DNA of 45,902 bases from a virus. The notes beneath the pieces were generated by a model. The model did not search any database. It was not told the origin of the DNA and saw only the letters and a list, made by a program, of their open reading frames with translations. The stretch covers positions 1 to 45,902 of the IMG/VR virus record IMGVR_UViG_3300021957_004744, one strand, 5' to 3'. The position numbers and the translations under genes were made by a program. This document shows positions 16,946 to 44,542 of the stretch, in pieces; within the stretch, counting starts at the first letter, position 1, and every line of letters starts with the position of its first letter.

Positions 16946-16989
16946 GTAAACTTACAGTAGAGCTTGAGGAATGGAAGAATGGATTCTAA
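16942..16989 (+). pseudogene. Deletion relic of a paralogue of the 16465 gene
   Basis: A 15-residue micro-ORF, MSKLTVELEEWKNGF, that joins a copy of the 5' end of the 16465 gene to a copy of its 3' end. Bases 16941-16968 match 16467-16494 at 25 of 28 positions, and TTGAGGAATGGAAGAATG at 16964-16981 is identical to 16694-16711. The middle of the paralogue is gone. The retained 3' piece now supplies the ribosome site (GAGGAATGGAAG) for glyA. Confidence 0.65.
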
Positions 16990-18124
16990 AGTTAAAGTAA
17001 TACTAGAACGAGAAATCGATAGGCAAGAAACCACAGTAGAGCTTATAGCAAGTGAAAACTTTGCTAGTCAAGCCGTCATGGATTTAGCAGGTTCAGTTTT
17101 TACAAACAAGTATGCCGAAGGTTATCCTGGCAAGCGTTACTACAACGGTTGCGAACATATGGATGAGATTGAAACACTTGCTATTGACACACTATGCAAA
17201 TTATACGGAGCAAAGTTTGCGAATGTACAGCCGCATTGTGGTGCTAACGCTAACACAGCAGTATATCAAGCACTAATGAAACCTGGCGATAAACTGTTGG
17301 GCATGGATTTAGCCAGTGGCGGACATCTATCGCATGGCAGTGCTCCTAACATTTCTGGCAAGATTTATGATGCATATCACTATGGTGTAAATGCAGATGG
17401 ATTTTTAGACTATGATGAGATTGCACGGCAAGCATTTGAAGTAAGGCCGCACGTTATTGTAGCGGGTGCTAGTGCATATCCACGTGAAATTGATTGGGCA
17501 AAGTTTCGTGCTATTGCTGACACAGTAGATGCATATCTAGTAGTGGATATGGCACACTACTCAGGCTTAATTGCAGGAGGTGCTTATCCTAGCCCTATTA
17601 AATATGCTGACGTTGTTACAAGTACCACACACAAAACTCTACGTGGGCCACGAGGCGGGATTATTCTTTGGAACAATGAAGAATATACAAAGAAAATTAA
17701 TTCAGCAATTTTTCCTGGTACACAGGGCGGCCCACTAATGAATATCATTGCTGCAAAAGCACAGGCGTTTATTGAAGCAAGCACACCAGAGTTTGCAGAT
17801 TACGCTCGTCGTGTAGTAGAAAATGCACAAGCAATGTGTGAAGTTTTTATCACAAATGGATTCAAAGTTCTAACTGGTGGGACAGATTCGCACATTATCC
17901 TAATGGATTTGAGTGAATCTAAATACAGCGGTCGTGAAGCCGCAGACCTACTAGAAGAAAATGGTATTACAGTAAATAAAAATGGCGTACCAAATGATCC
18001 ACGTAGTTTTGTAGAAACTAGTGGTATTAGAATCGGTACTGCCGCAGAAACAACACGAGGTCACTATGCAGAATGGTTTAGAGACCTCGCTAACAAGATT
18101 TGTGACATATTAGAGTTAAGATGA
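16979..18124 (+). CDS. glyA: Serine hydroxymethyltransferase
   Basis: 381-residue PLP enzyme converting serine and tetrahydrofolate to glycine and methylene-THF, the one-carbon donor for thymidylate or hydroxymethyl-pyrimidine synthesis. Seen: LIASENFAS near the start, YPGKRYYNGCE, GGHLSHG, VVDMAHYSGLIAGG, and the PLP lysine in TSTTHKTLRGPRGG (about residue 220), then AIFPGTQGG. The start is the ATG at 16979; a TTG at 16964 in frame belongs to the duplicated leader. About 30-40 residues shorter than typical GlyA, trimmed at the C-terminus. Its GC content is higher than its flanks, which may indicate a separate origin. Confidence 0.93.
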   Translation: MDSKVKVILEREIDRQETTVELIASENFASQAVMDLAGSVFTNKYAEGYPGKRYYNGCEHMDEIETLAIDTLCKLYGAKFANVQPHCGANANTAVYQALMKPGDKLLGMDLASGGHLSHGSAPNISGKIYDAYHYGVNADGFLDYDEIARQAFEVRPHVIVAGASAYPREIDWAKFRAIADTVDAYLVVDMAHYSGLIAGGAYPSPIKYADVVTSTTHKTLRGPRGGIILWNNEEYTKKINSAIFPGTQGGPLMNIIAAKAQAFIEASTPEFADYARRVVENAQAMCEVFITNGFKVLTGGTDSHIILMDLSESKYSGREAADLLEENGITVNKNGVPNDPRSFVETSGIRIGTAAETTRGHYAEWFRDLANKICDILELR

Positions 18125-19251
18125 TTGATAAAAACACTTTTTGTACCCGTCCTTGGAACGAGTTACATATTGAAGAAGACGGAAGAATCACTCCTTGTTG
18201 TGTGATGCCGTCTAATAGTGGGTTTATGGCTCCAAAAGGTATAAAAAACTATTTACAGTCTAATGAATTGAAAAGCCTTAAAGATAATCTAAAAAAAGGA
18301 ATTAAAGATGATTCTTGTAAAACTTGTTGGATGCAAGAAAATTTAGGATATAATTCACATAGAAAAACAACTTTAGCAACTGATGAAAAGTTAGATAGAA
18401 TAGAGGCAGTACATATTAGAAGCACTAATGTTTGCAACTTTAAGTGTAGAATTTGTGTCCCAGAACTAAGTTCTACTTGGGTAGCGGAAAATAAAAAACA
18501 TCATCTATTTAAAAACAAAGTAGAAATAGTGGACAATCTGTTAGATGATGAAAAGTATGCAGAAGAGTTATTTTCAATATTAAAAAGAGTAAAACAAATT
18601 TGGATAAGTGGGGGCGAGCCTTTGGCTTCCTCCACTACTTTGCGTTTTTTCGAGTTAGCAAAAAAACACGGTATTAATGATACTAACATTGCTTTTAATA
18701 CTAATTTATCGACACTAAGTTATAAAAATCATTATTGGTTAGACGAGTTTAAAGGGCATAAAGTAACTCTGACAGTAAGTTGGGATGGGTTTGGTAAGCA
18801 AATGGAATATCACAGAACAGGAATGAATTGGAAAAAAAGTTTACAAAACTTTAAAGACTCTATTGATTGGATTTTTAATATTAATTGTGTGGCATCTATC
18901 TATTCAGTATACTCAATTCCTAGACTAATTCATTTTTGTGATAAAGTGGACAAATCTTTAGAGATTAACCCTATTGCGGGTAAAGACTATATCAGTCTTC
19001 AATCTTTGCCTATCACAGAAAAAGATAAAATTAAACAATACTATGAAAAGTTTTTTAAAAACAAAGACACACAACATTTACAAGATGTTGCTTGGCAATC
19101 GGTTATCGAACCTATGTATAAAAAACAACTAGACCCACACCTAAATTCGGGGTTTAAACAGTATAACATTTTATTAGACAAATATAGGAAGACAAATTTT
19201 GTGAATGTATATCCAGAGTATGAAGAATGGTGGAACTCAATAAAATCCTAG
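18121..19251 (+). CDS. Radical SAM protein with N-terminal SPASM/twitch-like cysteines
   Basis: 376 residues. The radical SAM motif is CNFKCRIC (about residue 104) followed by WISGGEPL. Before it, residues 7-60 carry CTRPWNELHIEEDG, TPCCVM and CKTCW, a SPASM/twitch-type auxiliary cluster that in most enzymes lies after the SAM domain. This N-terminal arrangement is typical of the twitch-domain radical SAM proteins of marine phages. Reaction unknown; many SPASM enzymes modify peptides. Overlaps glyA by 4 bases and the next gene by 25. Confidence 0.87.
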   Translation: MIDKNTFCTRPWNELHIEEDGRITPCCVMPSNSGFMAPKGIKNYLQSNELKSLKDNLKKGIKDDSCKTCWMQENLGYNSHRKTTLATDEKLDRIEAVHIRSTNVCNFKCRICVPELSSTWVAENKKHHLFKNKVEIVDNLLDDEKYAEELFSILKRVKQIWISGGEPLASSTTLRFFELAKKHGINDTNIAFNTNLSTLSYKNHYWLDEFKGHKVTLTVSWDGFGKQMEYHRTGMNWKKSLQNFKDSIDWIFNINCVASIYSVYSIPRLIHFCDKVDKSLEINPIAGKDYISLQSLPITEKDKIKQYYEKFFKNKDTQHLQDVAWQSVIEPMYKKQLDPHLNSGFKQYNILLDKYRKTNFVNVYPEYEEWWNSIKS

Positions 19252-32650: not shown

Positions 32651-32747
32651 AGATCGTACTGATTTAACAGACGGATCAGCGGAGATTACTATTTTTGAAG
32701 ATCAGTCTGCTGAAGTGGTTATATGTACAGATACATCAGTACACTGA
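32580..32747 (+). CDS. Small acidic protein
   Basis: 55 residues: MPEEKHTMTEAEVRNALVQW, LYDEDRTDLTDGSAEITIFE, ending VVICTDTSVH. Reads like a short alpha/beta protein. Its stop overlaps the next ATG (TGATG), the usual coupling here, which supports it over the competing frame. Confidence 0.52.
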   Translation: MPEEKHTMTEAEVRNALVQWLYDEDRTDLTDGSAEITIFEDQSAEVVICTDTSVH

Positions 32748-33040
32748 TGTCTGATACATATGTAGTGCGTAAAACACGCAAAAAAGATGCTTGGGATATT
32801 TCTAAGTTTAGTGACTATAAAGACGCTGACTCTATGTTCACAGTATCTAAACGGGGTAACACATACTCATGTGATTGCCCAGGGTTCTGGCGGCAAAAAG
32901 ATAAGTCAGAGCACAAACATTGTAAGATTGTCAAGTTTTGGAAAGAAAACTTAGAAGAGACTGACGGTTATGCTTTTTGGATTGAAGGCGACGATATAGA
33001 ATACAATCATTTTATGCCGACCAATGCTTTTTCCAAATAA
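32747..33040 (+). CDS. SWIM-zinc-finger-like protein
   Basis: 97 residues from the ATG at 32747. NTYSCDCPGFWRQKDKSEHK is followed by HCKIVKFW: a CxC pair then H-x-H-C, close to the SWIM CxCx(n)CxH pattern with ligand order altered. SWIM domains bind DNA or proteins. Last gene before the 2.7-kb gene-free stretch. Confidence 0.65.
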   Translation: MSDTYVVRKTRKKDAWDISKFSDYKDADSMFTVSKRGNTYSCDCPGFWRQKDKSEHKHCKIVKFWKENLEETDGYAFWIEGDDIEYNHFMPTNAFSK

Positions 33041-33049
33041 ATTTTTGAC

Positions 33050-33078
33050 TTGCCTAATGGATAAATTTTCTGTAATAT
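33050..33078 (+). promoter_or_regulatory. RNA-array promoter A
   Basis: TTGCCT (33050-33055), spacer 17 with GGATAAA, TAATAT (33073-33078). Preceded by a T-tract. Confidence 0.78.
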
Positions 33079-33084
33079 ATAATT

Positions 33085-33230
33085 ACACGTTGAGCAATAA
33101 AGCTTGACGATAACCAAAAGGTAAATCCTTTGACTATGGTGCCATCGCACCGAAAGTATTGGTTAGTAGGTGGACTAGATACCACCATAACTCAAAGGTA
33201 GTAGCTTAGGGAGCGGGCGACTCAATAAAA
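33085..33230 (+). ncRNA. Structured RNA A (compact, three-way junction)
   Basis: About 145 bases. TAACCAA (33111-33117) pairs with TTGGTTA (33159-33165) and encloses two hairpins: AAGG/CCTT (33118-33130) and GGTGC/GCACC with loop CATC (33138-33151). A fourth hairpin GGTGG/CCACC follows (33169-33186). The 5' GTTGAG (33089) could pair with CTCAA at 33191 or 33221, closing the molecule. No start codon with ribosome site. Role unknown. Confidence 0.7.
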
Positions 33231-33282
33231 TAAACTTCTTGCAGTTTGATCGTTCTTCACAGTAAAAACAATCATTTTTCTC

Positions 33283-33311
33283 TTGCAAAGACCTATACTT
33301 TTTGCTATTAT
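33283..33311 (+). promoter_or_regulatory. RNA-array promoter B
   Basis: TTGCAA (33283-33288), 17 bases, TATTAT (33306-33311). The spacer lacks a good GGTTAAA element; T-tract upstream. Confidence 0.7.
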
Positions 33312-33317
33312 AGAGAA

Positions 33318-33445
33318 TAAGAAATTTCTAGAGTTGTTATTCTTATAACTTTAGACGCTGGGCCGTTATCACCGCGTTAGTCGGCGGGTACGGGGTTACC
33401 TAGGGACTTAATTCTAAGAATTAAGCATAATCCTTCCTAAAAACC
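33318..33445 (+). ncRNA. Structured RNA B
   Basis: About 125 bases. ATAAGAA (33317-33323) pairs with TTCTTAT (33340-33346) at the 5' end; GCCG/CGGC and GGTA/TACC short stems lie in the middle; CTTAATTC/GAATTAAG with loop TAA (33407-33425) is a perfect 8-pair hairpin near the 3' end. Its 5' sequence does not share the TTGAG start, so it may be a distinct member. No ORF. Confidence 0.55.
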
Positions 33446-33456
33446 TCACTTTATTC

Positions 33457-33485
33457 TTGCTAAAAGGTTAAATTTTTAGTATTAT
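33457..33485 (+). promoter_or_regulatory. RNA-array promoter C
   Basis: TTGCTA (33457-33462), spacer AAAGGTTAAATTTTTAG (17), TATTAT (33480-33485). Confidence 0.8.
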
Positions 33486-33491
33486 ATATAA

Positions 33492-33650
33492 AGTAAGTCG
33501 AAGCTCCGAGACATTAAACAGGAGAGTCAATAGAAAGATTTTGTTTTACTTTCGTGATTGACCTAGTTTTTAGCCGTCGTATATCGGAGCAATCCGCGAC
33601 GGGGGTTGTTACCAAATAAACACGCGAGAGGTCACGGTTAATCTCTCAAC
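33492..33650 (+). ncRNA. Structured RNA C (pseudoknotted)
   Basis: About 160 bases. GCTCCGA (33503-33509) pairs with TCGGAGC (33584-33590), which lies in the loop of a second perfect helix CCGTCG/CGACGG (33574-33579 with 33597-33602): an H-type pseudoknot. Between the partners is a long arm GTCAAT/ATTGAC (33526-33531, 33557-33562) topped by GAAAG/CTTTC. A last hairpin GAGAG/CTCTC lies at 33626-33647. No ORF. Confidence 0.7.
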
Positions 33651-33662
33651 TTAACTTTATAC

Positions 33663-33691
33663 TTGCCAAGAGGTTAAATTCTTGATATACT
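33663..33691 (+). promoter_or_regulatory. RNA-array promoter D
   Basis: TTGCCA (33663-33668), spacer AGAGGTTAAATTCTTGA (17), TATACT (33686-33691). Confidence 0.8.
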
Positions 33692-33697
33692 GTATAA

Positions 33698-33825
33698 AGA
33701 AATTGAGGGAAACCTCAAGGTTGGATAGACTAAGTCCAATTGCTTTGCAGAAGACTAAGTCTGGTAGGATAACAAAGGGTTATCATCGTATTTAAGCGGA
33801 TAGTTGGCGGGGCTTAATTACACTT
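33698..33825 (+). ncRNA. Structured RNA D
   Basis: About 120 bases. Starts GAAATTGAGG (33699-33708); its TTGAGG forms a perfect hairpin with CCTCAA around a GAAA tetraloop (33703-33718). Next TTGGA/TCCAA (33721-33739), a repeat of AGACTAAGTC at 33727 and 33752, and GATAAC/GTTATC (33768-33784). First 16 transcript-region bases (33693-33708) are identical to those of RNA E (33861-33876). Confidence 0.68.
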
Positions 33826-33830
33826 TTTTC

Positions 33831-33859
33831 TTGCTAAGAAGTTATTTTTTAGCTATAAT
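33831..33859 (+). promoter_or_regulatory. RNA-array promoter E
   Basis: TTGCTA (33831-33836), spacer AGAAGTTATTTTTTAGC (17), TATAAT (33854-33859), T6 upstream. The best -10 in the array. Confidence 0.82.
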
Positions 33860-33865
33860 ATATAA

Positions 33866-34197
33866 AGAAATTGAGGAAAACAACCTCTCTAAAAAATGTA
33901 AGGAAAGATTGATAAAGTTTAGGCAATAGAGCCGAGGTGGAGTTCAATCACGGTGTAGGCGGGTGACGGGGCCATACACAGGACAAGAGTTTCTAACGGC
34001 ACATTCGTGCCGACATCACTCTGCTACTCGGAGCAAAGGTTTTGTCCACGCCTTACTCCACACGGGTCGTTTAATGCAGAGGGTCCGCCGCAATACGTGC
34101 GCGGTGCCAGATGAGAGTAGAGCGCAGTCGAGCATCCTATGCAAATAGTTGATCTCCTCGCTCCTCTCTCTGGATAGACAAGGACAAACGAATTTAA
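33866..34197 (+). ncRNA. Structured RNA E
   Basis: About 330 bases, visibly more GC-rich than the coding DNA around it. 5' hairpin GAGG/CCTC; a long arm made of GGACAA (33981) with TTGTCC (34042), AGAGT with ACTCT (34018), and a tip CGGCAC/GTGCCG with loop ATTC (33997-34012); plus GTA-GGCG with CGCC-TTAC enclosing the arm. A 61-codon open frame (33963-34148) crosses these helices and has no ribosome site, so I do not call it a gene. Confidence 0.68.
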
Positions 34198-34205
34198 CTT
34201 TTTTC

Positions 34206-34234
34206 TTGCTTGATGGTTAAAAATCATGTAAGAT
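34206..34234 (+). promoter_or_regulatory. RNA-array promoter F
   Basis: TTGCTT (34206-34211), spacer GATGGTTAAAAATCATG (17), TAAGAT (34229-34234). Confidence 0.8.
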
Positions 34235-34240
34235 ATATAA

Positions 34241-34970
34241 AGAAATCGGGAAGTAGCACAGAGTTCGCCAAGGCTTGTAGTCAGTCAAGCACCGCAATAT
34301 AATAAAAGGCTGGCACGTTAATAAGTGCCTATGTAACAAACGAAAGGGTCGGTTATTATAAATTGCTACAGATCAATCATCAAGTTATCCTGTAGATCAG
34401 AATTAAAGAAGAGATAATGATGCTTTAATTCGAGTAGCAAGGTAAGGTTCTAGCTGGTAAACCGCAAGGGATATAGTAGAAAGTAGAACCATTGTGTATA
34501 GCGGGTTTGGGGGCTATATGCCTAGATTCAGATGAATAGGGATCATCCTGTGGGCTTAATTGGAAGTTCAGTCTAACATTTCGGTGTTACGCTGACCTGA
34601 TCGAGCAAGCTAAAGTTAAAACCACTTAATGATCCAACGGAGATACGGAATGCGTCTCACCCTATTCAACCCACAACCAACTGGATACTGCTACCTATTA
34701 CTGCGTGGTAATGTTGTCGAGAGTTATCAAAGACCTAACGATAACCATTAAAAGAGACAACTACGATTATAGGAGAGTCGCAAGTCCAGTCAAGATAGTA
34801 AGACGTGAGGCTATCATCACCTTTTGGGTGCGATACGGTTAGGCTGTATCGGGATTAGATTTACAAAGTGGGAAAGTAAATCCATCCTCTCAGAAATCAT
34901 GAATGGAAATTTCCAGAAATGGTTAGAGGGGGTTGGTAGGGAGACTGTTGAAAAACACTCCCTACCACCA
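34241..34970 (+). ncRNA. Large structured RNA F (about 730 bases)
   Basis: No coding frame; dense perfect helices: GCTTG/CAAGC (34273-34290); GGCAC/GTGCC (34312-34329); a junction closed by TTGCTAC (34363) and GTAGCAA (34434) with GAATTAAAG/CTTTAATTC inside (34400-34431); GGTTCTA/TAGAACC (34446-34490) holding CC-GCAA-GG; AACAT-TTCG-GTGTT (about 34577); GTTATC/GATAAC (about 34724); GATTTAC/GTAAATC (34858-34882); and a 10-pair 3' hairpin TGGTAGGGAG/CTCCCTACCA (34934-34967). Size and ornament recall GOLLD and ROOL RNAs, but I see no proof of kinship. Confidence 0.75.
34934..34967 (+). terminator. 3' hairpin of RNA F, possible terminator
   Basis: TGGTAGGGAG (34934-34943), 14-base loop, CTCCCTACCA (34958-34967). 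The T-run (T7) comes 18 bases later and belongs to the next promoter, so termination would be imperfect. Confidence 0.5.
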
Positions 34971-34992
34971 TAAATAGGAATTCATTTTTTTC

Positions 34993-35021
34993 TTGCTTGA
35001 TGGTTAAAAATTTGGTAAGAT
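34993..35021 (+). promoter_or_regulatory. RNA-array promoter G
   Basis: TTGCTT (34993-34998), spacer GATGGTTAAAAATTTGG (17), TAAGAT (35016-35021). From -35 through -10 it differs from promoter F in only a few spacer bases. Confidence 0.8.
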
Positions 35022-35027
35022 AATAAA

Positions 35028-35727
35028 TACATTGAGAAACAAAAGTTGTCTAACTAACATCTCTGATTTCTCCGCCAGTAGAGGGGCGTTAAAAGTTCTA
35101 CAAAGAGGATGGGAAAATAACCTCTTACCAGAAAAAATAACCCATACTCGCTTCCCCTGTTATAGCGAAAAATAAATTAAGACTGGGTGTGAGAGATGCT
35201 CCATAACACATAAACATCTGGATTGCTGTGTAATCCTTCCCCACATTAAACGGGTAAGGACGAGAAGCTAAACAGTCGTAAGAATAAAGTACCGCAACTA
35301 TCTGATGAAGCGGTTTATCAAAGAGTCAGAGGGCAGGAAAGGCACTACAAACCCGCTGATCTCGTAAAGATTATCTAGCATAGCAGATTATTGACTATGC
35401 CGTGTAAAGAGGCACACGTATTAGCACCTCGGTCTAACCAAAGGAACGACGTAAAATTGACCTTGTGAGGGCAAGACAGTCCAAGACACCACAAGAGGCT
35501 AGTAACCTCAAGTCTAGAAATGGTCGACATTTCGATATCCGAGGATAAGATTGTTATTTCACTGACAATCGTGGATATGGCGCCCCTTGATACGGGACTT
35601 TATGAAATAGTGTTAAAGCTGTTTTGTATCGGAGAGGGCCATAACAGTTACTAGCGGAGGTGGTGCTAGTTACACAAGTGATTTTATAAAAAGCTACATA
35701 CCTTTGGTGGGGTTTGTGGCTTTTTTT
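35028..35727 (+). ncRNA. Large structured RNA G (about 700 bases)
   Basis: Begins with ATTGAG (35031). Perfect helices include AAGAGG/CCTCTT (about 35102), GGATT/AATCC (about 35220), ACCGC/GCGGT (about 35291), GCATAG/CTATGC (about 35378), CGTGT/ACACG (about 35402), GAGG/CCTC (about 35495), GATTGT/ACAATC nested inside ATATCC/GGATAT (about 35536-35578), and ACTAGC/GCTAGT (about 35650). Ends at a true intrinsic terminator. No ORF with a ribosome site. Confidence 0.75.
35690..35727 (+). terminator. Rho-independent terminator closing the RNA array
   Basis: AAAGCTACA (35690-35698) pairs with TGTGGCTTT (35715-35723), one GU pair, and the stem runs into seven T (35721-35727). Confidence 0.85.
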
Positions 35728-35730
35728 GTG

Positions 35731-35759
35731 TTTACAGCTCGCCAAGAAAATGTTATAAT
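35731..35759 (+). promoter_or_regulatory. Promoter of the lipoprotein gene
   Basis: TTTACA (35731-35736), 17 bases, TATAAT (35754-35759), starting four bases after the array terminator. The ATG at 35765 is only five bases beyond the -10. Confidence 0.72.
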
Positions 35760-35764
35760 ATGCT

Positions 35765-36085
35765 ATGAAAAAGATTATTGGAATACCTATTATTTGTTTT
35801 TCAGTTTCTGGTTGTGCCGGAGGTGCGGTAACTTTTGTGGACGCAGTTCTTACTACCCTTAGTGGTGCAGATTTTATTACTAGAACAACAACAGATAAAG
35901 GTATAGTGGACCACGGTTTGGACGAGGTAACAGGAAAAAACTGTAAAGTTTCAAACATAATTAAAGACAAAAAGATTTGTGAAGATAAACTAATAAAACA
36001 AATGGAAGAATTAAATTGTGACACATTCAGCTTTGACAAAGACGGAAATGTATACTGCGTCGAAAAAACAAAAGAATACAAGTAA
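35765..36085 (+). CDS. Small lipoprotein, apparently leaderless
   Basis: 106 residues. Signal KKIIGIPIICFSVSGCAG with lipobox VSGC (Cys 17). Mature: TTTDKGIVDHGLDEVTGKNC, VSNIIKDKKICED, NCDTFSFDKDGNVYCVE; the layout (kgi.D...e.tG.nC ... iC.d) resembles small lipoproteins of alphaproteobacteria, which would hint at the host (weak). The ATG lies 5 bases after the -10, leaving no room for a ribosome site. An alternative is a GTG/ATG further in, but that would lose the signal peptide. Confidence 0.72.
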   Translation: MKKIIGIPIICFSVSGCAGGAVTFVDAVLTTLSGADFITRTTTDKGIVDHGLDEVTGKNCKVSNIIKDKKICEDKLIKQMEELNCDTFSFDKDGNVYCVEKTKEYK

Positions 36086-43927: not shown

Positions 43928-44307
43928 AAGATAGATTTTTTGAAGCTGCTAAAGCAGCAGCTTTAGTATCAGAAGGCGTGGGCAAACGTAAAAGTTTTAA
44001 GCACGGAGCAGTAATTGTAAAAAAGAATCAAGTGCTTGCAAGTGGGCATAATTCATATAAAACCCACCCTCTTATGGCAAAGTATACAGCATTTCCACAC
44101 CTACATGCAGAACAAAAAGCGATTATTAATCTTGGACTAGATAACTGTCATGGATTGGATTTGTATGTGGTTAGAATAAATAAACAAAAAAACTTTATGA
44201 TGAGTAAACCGTGTTCAGTATGTAGAATACTTATTGACAAGGTCGGTATTCGTAATGTATACTATACAGACAATAAAGGAAAAACTGCCCTTAGCTCAGC
44301 TGGATAG
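43924..44307 (+). CDS. Cytidine/deoxycytidylate deaminase-like protein
   Basis: 127 residues. Zinc site: FPHLHAEQKAIINLG (HxE) about residue 59 and SKPCSVCRILIDK (PCxxC) about 97; KHGAVIVKKNQVLASGHN is the typical N-terminal strand pair. Likely a dCMP, cytidine or related base deaminase. The last eight codons read into the tRNA-Arg gene (from 44285), so the natural end may have been displaced by the tRNA insertion, or the overlap is real. Confidence 0.82.
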   Translation: MKDRFFEAAKAAALVSEGVGKRKSFKHGAVIVKKNQVLASGHNSYKTHPLMAKYTAFPHLHAEQKAIINLGLDNCHGLDLYVVRINKQKNFMMSKPCSVCRILIDKVGIRNVYYTDNKGKTALSSAG

Positions 44308-44361
44308 AGCAACAGCCTTCTAAGCTGTAGGTCGTAGGTTCGACTCCTACAGGGCAGGCCA
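44285..44361 (+). tRNA. tRNA-Arg (anticodon UCU)
   Basis: Acceptor CTGCCCT/AGGGCAG, D-arm GCTC...GAGC, anticodon loop CTTCTAA between ACAGC and GCTGT, T-loop TTCGACT, encoded CCA (44359-44361). Reads AGA. Its first 23 bases are also the end of the deaminase gene. Confidence 0.92.
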
Positions 44362-44363
44362 AT

Positions 44364-44447
44364 GCGACCGTGGTGAAATAGGTAAACACAACAGACTTAA
44401 AATCTGTCGCTTCTAGCTTCCCAGTTCGAGTCTGGGCGGTCGCACCA
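44364..44447 (+). tRNA. tRNA-Leu (anticodon UAA)
   Basis: Acceptor GCGACCG/CGGTCGC, anticodon stem ACAGA/TCTGT with loop CTTAAAA, variable arm of class II type, T-loop TTCGAGT, encoded CCA (44445-44447). Reads TTA, the main leucine codon in this AT-rich genome. Confidence 0.93.
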
Positions 44448-44448
44448 A

Positions 44449-44542
44449 GGTCCTGTAGTTTAATGGTAAAACACCCGACTTATATTCGGCATAGTCTCCA
44501 GATTAGAGAGCGATACAGGTTCGAATCCTGTCAGGACTACCA
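44449..44542 (+). tRNA. tRNA with UAU anticodon (Ile type) and long variable arm
   Basis: Acceptor GGTCCTG/CAGGACT (GU first pair), D-arm GTTT/AAAC, anticodon stem CCGA/TCGG around loop CTTATAT, T-arm ACAGG-TTCGAAT-CCTGT, encoded CCA (44540-44542). The variable region is about 24 bases with a TCTC/GAGA stem, a class II feature expected only for Leu, Ser or bacterial Tyr. The anticodon UAU would read ATA. Amino acid identity is therefore uncertain. Confidence 0.75.

Follow-up and report, generated by a model that had tools for sequence, protein, structure and literature searches.

What does a virus encode in 2.7 kb of DNA that hold no credible gene? The question is raised by positions 33041-35760 of the IMG/VR record IMGVR_UViG_3300021957_004744, an uncultured virus whose 45,902 bases, analyzed at full length, are called the window in the following. 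From the sequence alone this interval had been read as an array of seven promoters, each followed by a structured RNA, with one terminator closing the set. Judged by conserved promoters, by homologous arrays in related phages and by compensatory base changes, it is a real locus of noncoding RNAs (ncRNAs), whose units (U1 to U7) are RNA genes.

In the interval bounded by the end of one gene at 33040 and the start of the next at 35765, the longest open reading frame (ORF) on either strand has 67 amino acids (aa), which matches chance, the maxima of shuffled sequence averaging 82 aa (range 50-186). By comparison, every other tested 2.7-kb segment clear of the array contained ORFs of at least 150 aa, and segments of this size partly overlapping it had ORFs of 105 aa; the ORF-poor stretch spans 33041-35735. 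The claim that no credible ORF exists here was thus borne out, and the close relatives, in which intact reading frames had been named as a counter-indication, are also ORF-less there. ARAGORN and Rfam found no transfer RNA (tRNA) or transfer-messenger RNA (tmRNA) gene within 33041-35760.

The seven promoters with their 17-base spacers were all found again, at 33050, 33283, 33457, 33663, 33831, 34206 and 34993 (each TTGNNN-17-TANNNT). They belong to a class made up of CTTGC, a spacer of 17 nucleotides (nt) with GTTAAAATT, and TATAAT, in which the spacer sequence itself is conserved. Their significance derives from comparative matrices, as a generic sigma-70 consensus scan was uninformative (37 sites versus 29.9 expected) and would be insufficient alone. 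When a 39-nt matrix of 24 promoters preceding array units of other phages, none taken from the window, was run over both window strands, the seven sites ranked 3, 12, 1, 6, 7, 2 and 4, six of them thus lying within the top seven of the entire 45.9-kb window. The lowest of the seven scored 17.2 bits, whereas 200 dinucleotide shuffles of the array peaked at 11.9. Reciprocally, the top sites that a matrix of the window's seven promoters gave in the relatives were their array promoters; a strict promoter pattern search matched only one relative, G001 (IMGVR_UViG_3300009481_002868). The promoters, with their ranks in the relatives-only matrix, and the terminator are the following:

33049..33087, plus strand: promoter 1, of U1, CTTGC-N18-TAATAT; rank 3, with a homologous promoter in G001
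33282..33320, plus strand: promoter 2, of U2; the weakest of the seven (rank 12, 17.2 bits), exceeding every shuffle
33456..33494, plus strand: promoter 3, of U3; rank 1, 39.8 bits
33662..33700, plus strand: promoter 4, of U4; rank 6
33830..33868, plus strand: promoter 5, of U5; rank 7, identical in G001 from TTCTTGC to TATAAT
34205..34243, plus strand: promoter 6, of U6; rank 2
34992..35030, plus strand: promoter 7, of U7; rank 4
35688..35727, plus strand: intrinsic terminator closing the array, a long hairpin followed by TTTTTTT

The predicted closing terminator is therefore present as a hairpin with its T-run, and it is followed at 35731 by a promoter-like site of the downstream gene at 35765. 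Note also that the array promoter class precedes some protein genes of the window (32189, 45095), and thus looks like the ordinary vegetative-type promoter of this phage rather than an RNA-specific one.

ORF-poor multi-promoter arrays occur in the uncultured phages G001, G019, G031, G033, G034, G040 and G042. G001, found by a protein search with the gene upstream of the array, is syntenic with the window, and its contig stops inside the array. A profile of an Fpg/Nei-like glycosylase picked out 80 loci across the broader group of phages, and searching these records with the array DNA added G019 (36 kb, with the same upstream gene), G031 (173.5 kb), G033 and G034, while a search with M4, a module of U6, added G040, G042 and G056. 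The order in G019 is a SWIM-like gene, one promoted RNA, two protein genes and three promoted RNAs. The arrays of G031, G033 and G034 are about 66-78% alike, have four to five promoters and are flanked by a PhoH-like gene on the upstream side and, as read from the translations, by another SWIM-like Cys-His gene on the downstream side; in this group, pairs changed on both sides number 13 in unit 1 and four in unit 2. Between phages the context, the unit number and the unit order vary, and promoters and RNA modules are common. The earlier idea of a locus making a family of ncRNAs is hence upheld by promoters, arrays and compensatory changes, but the modules are reshuffled between phages and do not form one sequence family. 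L003/G002 and L004 have flanking genes in common and lack an array at those genes. Searched by BLASTN, cultured phages showed no match to the array, and the U6 module M1 and the G034 array gave either none there or short chance-like or promoter-like ones.

The small units, with the z-scores of their fold energies, are:

33084..33270, plus strand: U1 RNA, about 190 nt, z=-2.0; conserved core at 33128-33197 (nhmmer E=0.0016)
33317..33445, plus strand: U2 RNA, about 130 nt, z=-2.3; 3' end formed by the conserved CATAATCCTTCCTAAAAA, homologue in G001 (nhmmer E=0.0027)
33491..33650, plus strand: U3 RNA, about 160 nt, z=-1.1; hairpins at 33504-33562 and a terminator-like 3' module at 33603-33647
33697..33825, plus strand: U4 RNA, about 130 nt, z=-2.7
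33865..34190, plus strand: U5 RNA, about 330 nt, z=-2.0

Covariation in homologues, which the sequence-only reading had proposed as a check, was observed as compensatory pairs in U1, U3 and U6 and, more weakly, in U2, several of these tests comprising two or three sequences only. U1 and the first array RNA of G019 differ by five compensatory pairs, which lie in the helices closing the conserved core (two sequences). The U3 stem at 33526-33562 changes from GTCAAT/ATTGAC to CCTATT/AATAGG in G001, which amounts to four compensatory pairs, and L070/L072/L073 have the 3' module of U3 too, in the form of a terminator-type hairpin, with three such pairs. For U2 the three-sequence consensus is weak, with six pairs changed on both sides. 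Matches to the U3 pattern other than that in G001 were, as far as inspected, chance matches in coding sequence. From these comparisons, RNA structure is under selection in U1, U3 and U6, with weaker support for U2.

The giant units and the conserved modules within U6 are:

34240..34975, plus strand: U6, giant RNA of about 740 nt, z=-4.3, holding three conserved modules
34298..34360, plus strand: U6 module M1, AGGCTG-hairpin-TATGTAACAAACGARAGGGTCGG within a closing stem
34446..34521, plus strand: U6 module M2, CTGGTAAACCGCAAGG ... GTATAGCGGGTTTGGGGGCTATA
34537..34664, plus strand: U6 module M4, junction GATCATCC ... TTAATGATCCAACGGAG
35027..35735, plus strand: U7, giant RNA of about 700 nt, z=-3.0

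The description of all units as full of perfect hairpins applies unevenly, as U3 reaches a z-score of just -1.1. The sense strand of U6 folds at -216.1 kcal/mol and the antisense strand at -184.0 kcal/mol. M1 is present in 14 viral contigs; across eight distinct sequences, aligned with hand-trimming to the closing stem, 11 of its 13 pairs are changed on both sides, 95% of the cells are paired (30-47% with the partner slid), and the covariation score is 0.90 versus 0.27 when shuffled. M4, present in G031, G033, G034, G040, G042 and G056, shows double-sided changes in 5 of its 14 pairs across these six phages and 98.8% pairing (11-46% slid), the variable inner hairpin having been removed from the alignment beforehand. 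M2 shares 83% identity with unit three of the later array in G019, with three compensatory pairs (two sequences). A general motif GCGGG-N-GGGG is not claimed for the units (6 occurrences versus 1.15 expected, mononucleotide shuffles also reaching 6); it was convincing only in the hairpin common to U6 and G019.

M1 also occurs solo in unrelated-looking phage contigs (L150, L152, L155-L163), where its closing stem covaries; in L150, L152 and L157 it is then followed by a gene of one family. No match to M1 was found in 84,980 GTDB genomes. M1 is a candidate for a new phage RNA family.

Full Rfam scans of the window array gave zero family matches, with the phi29 pRNA family and manA (RF01745) unmatched too; the low scorers, an S4-Flavobacteria leader (E=1) and SAM-II (E=2.5), were dismissed as chance. 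The arrays of the relatives contain known families. In G019, a relative showing synteny with the window at this locus, the middle one of the three later units contains GOLLD (166.3 bits, E=3.5e-45), whose linker carries a tRNA-like gene (L139 6606-6680, for which an odd four-base anticodon, tttg, was called). In G025 and G002, GOLLD (205 bits) lies inside tRNA islands, behind array-type promoters, and is followed by another promoted RNA; these islands (G002 L029 2877-6539, G025 L143 3402-7633) hold 18 tRNAs each. A manA RNA (61.3 bits, above the cut-off) lies downstream of M4 within the same unit of G040, and in unit 4 of G031 the start of the transcript coincides with that of another one (40.5 bits, E=2.8e-7, under the cut-off). 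Both are thus found in ORF-less array units and not in the 5' untranslated region (UTR) of a metabolic gene.

A comparable RNA cluster was seen in cyanophage S-CREM1, where wcaG, manA and abiF RNA occur within 0.9 kb, interleaved with tRNAs and not as 5' UTRs of metabolic genes:

L185 2746-3568 (OP535465 9745-10567): S-CREM1 RNA cluster

In this comparison, which is no test of homology, it looks like the phage arrays.

How might such a locus work? Each unit would be transcribed from its own vegetative-type promoter into a structured RNA, of 130-330 nt for U1-U5 and of giant size for U6 and U7, and the terminator would end the set. We infer that host RNA polymerase transcribes the array strongly during infection and that this yields stable RNAs, which work in trans as particles or scaffolds. 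The array is best read as a modular cassette of ncRNAs of the 'ornate large RNA' kind, its giants being U6 and U7, which are likely to be functional counterparts of GOLLD. GOLLD and ROOL form closed RNA cages, that of GOLLD being a reportedly hollow, closed oligomer, and GOLLD is reported to bind ribosomes (PMC12286853); because of these properties the translation apparatus is favored as the target, and the likeliest job may be to hold or shield its parts, such as tRNAs and ribosomes, while the phage takes over the host. Modules are swapped between units as the locus evolves. On balance, we find it reasonably probable that the array is a cassette of seven tandem ncRNA genes acting as RNA particles or scaffolds, probably on parts of the translation apparatus.

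Several observations weigh against this explanation. No direct tie connects the window RNAs to tRNAs, ribosomes or oligomers, and the window's tRNA genes (39008, 42864 and 44285-44542) lie 3.3-9 kb from the array. The GOLLD model RF02032 gave no match in the window, be it at gathering, at E<=5 or at E<=1, and model searches lent no support to a GOLLD hidden there, for example as U7. A homologue search found none for U4, U5 and U7, so that their structures are predictions from fold energy only. Finally, a GOLLD RNA of a Lactobacillus brevis prophage was reported as not needed for phage production, as quoted in PMC7567579.

The main rival explanation, which we consider rather unlikely, takes the RNAs as decoys or inhibitors directed against host defense or RNA-processing proteins such as nucleases, RNA-sensing defense or toxin-antitoxin systems. 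A varied, reshuffled and separately promoted set could soak up or block several targets, its unit diversity, module shuffling and separate promoters would suit an arms race, and the tRNA inside the G019 GOLLD unit also fits; however, no direct sign of a target was seen, and cores such as M1 and M4 show higher conservation than fast-evolving decoys would be expected to have. That the units are base-pairing regulatory RNAs (sponges or antisense RNAs) acting on phage or host messenger RNAs, with structure serving stability only, is improbable: U1-U5 have the size of small RNAs (sRNAs), and regulatory ncRNAs are known from several phages and satellites (PMC7567579), but the conservation resides in structured cores with compensatory stems, and units of about 700 nt far exceed typical sRNAs.

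Two further explanations carry still less weight. Were the array a riboswitch-like series of leaders controlling neighboring genes, seven promoters would not be expected to follow one another without an ORF until 35765, which itself lies behind the terminator with a promoter-like site of its own; the flanking genes differ in the relatives as well. Rfam does file manA RNA as cis-regulatory, and solo M1 sometimes stands immediately 5' of a gene, although not consistently 5' of a co-oriented one, and this explanation appears very improbable to us. Least credible, with hardly any weight, is a DNA-level element (a replication origin, a packaging or a recombination site) or a decayed coding region, as might be suggested by interval repeats and by the absence of ORFs. 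It is disfavored by pairing that is maintained via compensatory and G-U changes, by the better folding of the U6 sense strand, by relatives that carry the RNA modules at different genomic places, also without ORFs, and by the known RNA families within the relatives' arrays.

As to the genomic surroundings, the gene directly upstream of the array encodes a product with no Pfam or PHROG match:

32723..33040, plus strand: gene whose small product shows a SWIM-like Cys-Cys-His-His pattern

SWIM-like Cys-His genes stand near several arrays, namely upstream in the window, in G001 and in G019 (directly before array RNAs), near the G040 array and, as a different gene, downstream in G033/G034; positions among the relatives include L133 and L142 6151-6400. 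Their products are possible RNA- or DNA-binding partners. Other window genes are those for a carbamoyltransferase (984-2411), a serine hydroxymethyltransferase (16964-18124) and a radical-SAM-like protein (18121-19251). The virus is a tailed phage, probably of an alphaproteobacterium, because its relatives G001 and G002 encode a permuted tmRNA of alphaproteobacterial type (Rfam alpha_tmRNA, tmRNA_permuted):

L025 66-551, minus strand, and L030 6433-6677, plus strand: tmRNA in G001/G002, by Rfam

GOLLD- and ROOL-type RNAs rank among the largest RNAs of bacteria and phages. At about 740 and 700 nt, U6 and U7 share one trait of the GOLLD type, that of a phage-encoded structured RNA of >600 nt without an ORF. 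They resemble GOLLD (RF02032) in that it is phage-borne, giant (>700 nt), ornate and ORF-less; GOLLD is also located near tRNA genes, those of the window being 3.3 kb or more from the array. Moreover, GOLLD is a unit of the homologous G019 array and stands behind promoters of this class in G025 and G002. However, the window's units fail its model, for which reason the giants are not classed as GOLLD, and no report was found of GOLLD in tandem promoted arrays. ROOL, which is phage-associated and often near tRNA islands (PMC12286853), and OLE are likewise large with elaborate folds, but Rfam matches to either are absent from the window and from those arrays of the relatives that were scanned. 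The structured RNAs manA and wcaG (RF01761) of marine phages were described as cis-regulatory candidates (PMC2864571); differently from its description, manA in the arrays starts an independent ORF-less transcript or sits within a larger RNA. Phages ICP1 and K have ORF-less regions of about 0.6-1.2 kb that give very abundant phage transcripts (PMC7567579, PMC9241854), although these are reported as separate ncRNAs, not as a tandem array, and are likened here by description only.

Large phage ncRNAs are thus known singly (GOLLD, ROOL, ICP1, phage K), and those of the window are not in Rfam. The sequence-only reading knew of no phage system with this layout; indeed, no description of tandem, separately promoted large-RNA phage arrays was found in the openly licensed literature, but known RNAs, GOLLD and manA, do belong to the relatives' arrays. 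We would tentatively suggest, as a possibility short of an even chance, that modular arrays are a feature of large uncultured phages, with as many as seven ornate RNAs each under a promoter of its own and with GOLLD and manA as just two of their interchangeable members; U6 and U7 would then be new self-assembling giant classes, and M1 a new portable motif used alone or inside giants. The promoter signature, together with M1, M2 and M4, provides search handles for further arrays. Among the marine-phage RNAs regarded as 'riboswitch candidates', some (manA, perhaps wcaG) may act as stand-alone RNAs, and the presence of GOLLD as an exchangeable unit beside non-Rfam RNAs offers a genomic context in which its partners and functions can be sought.

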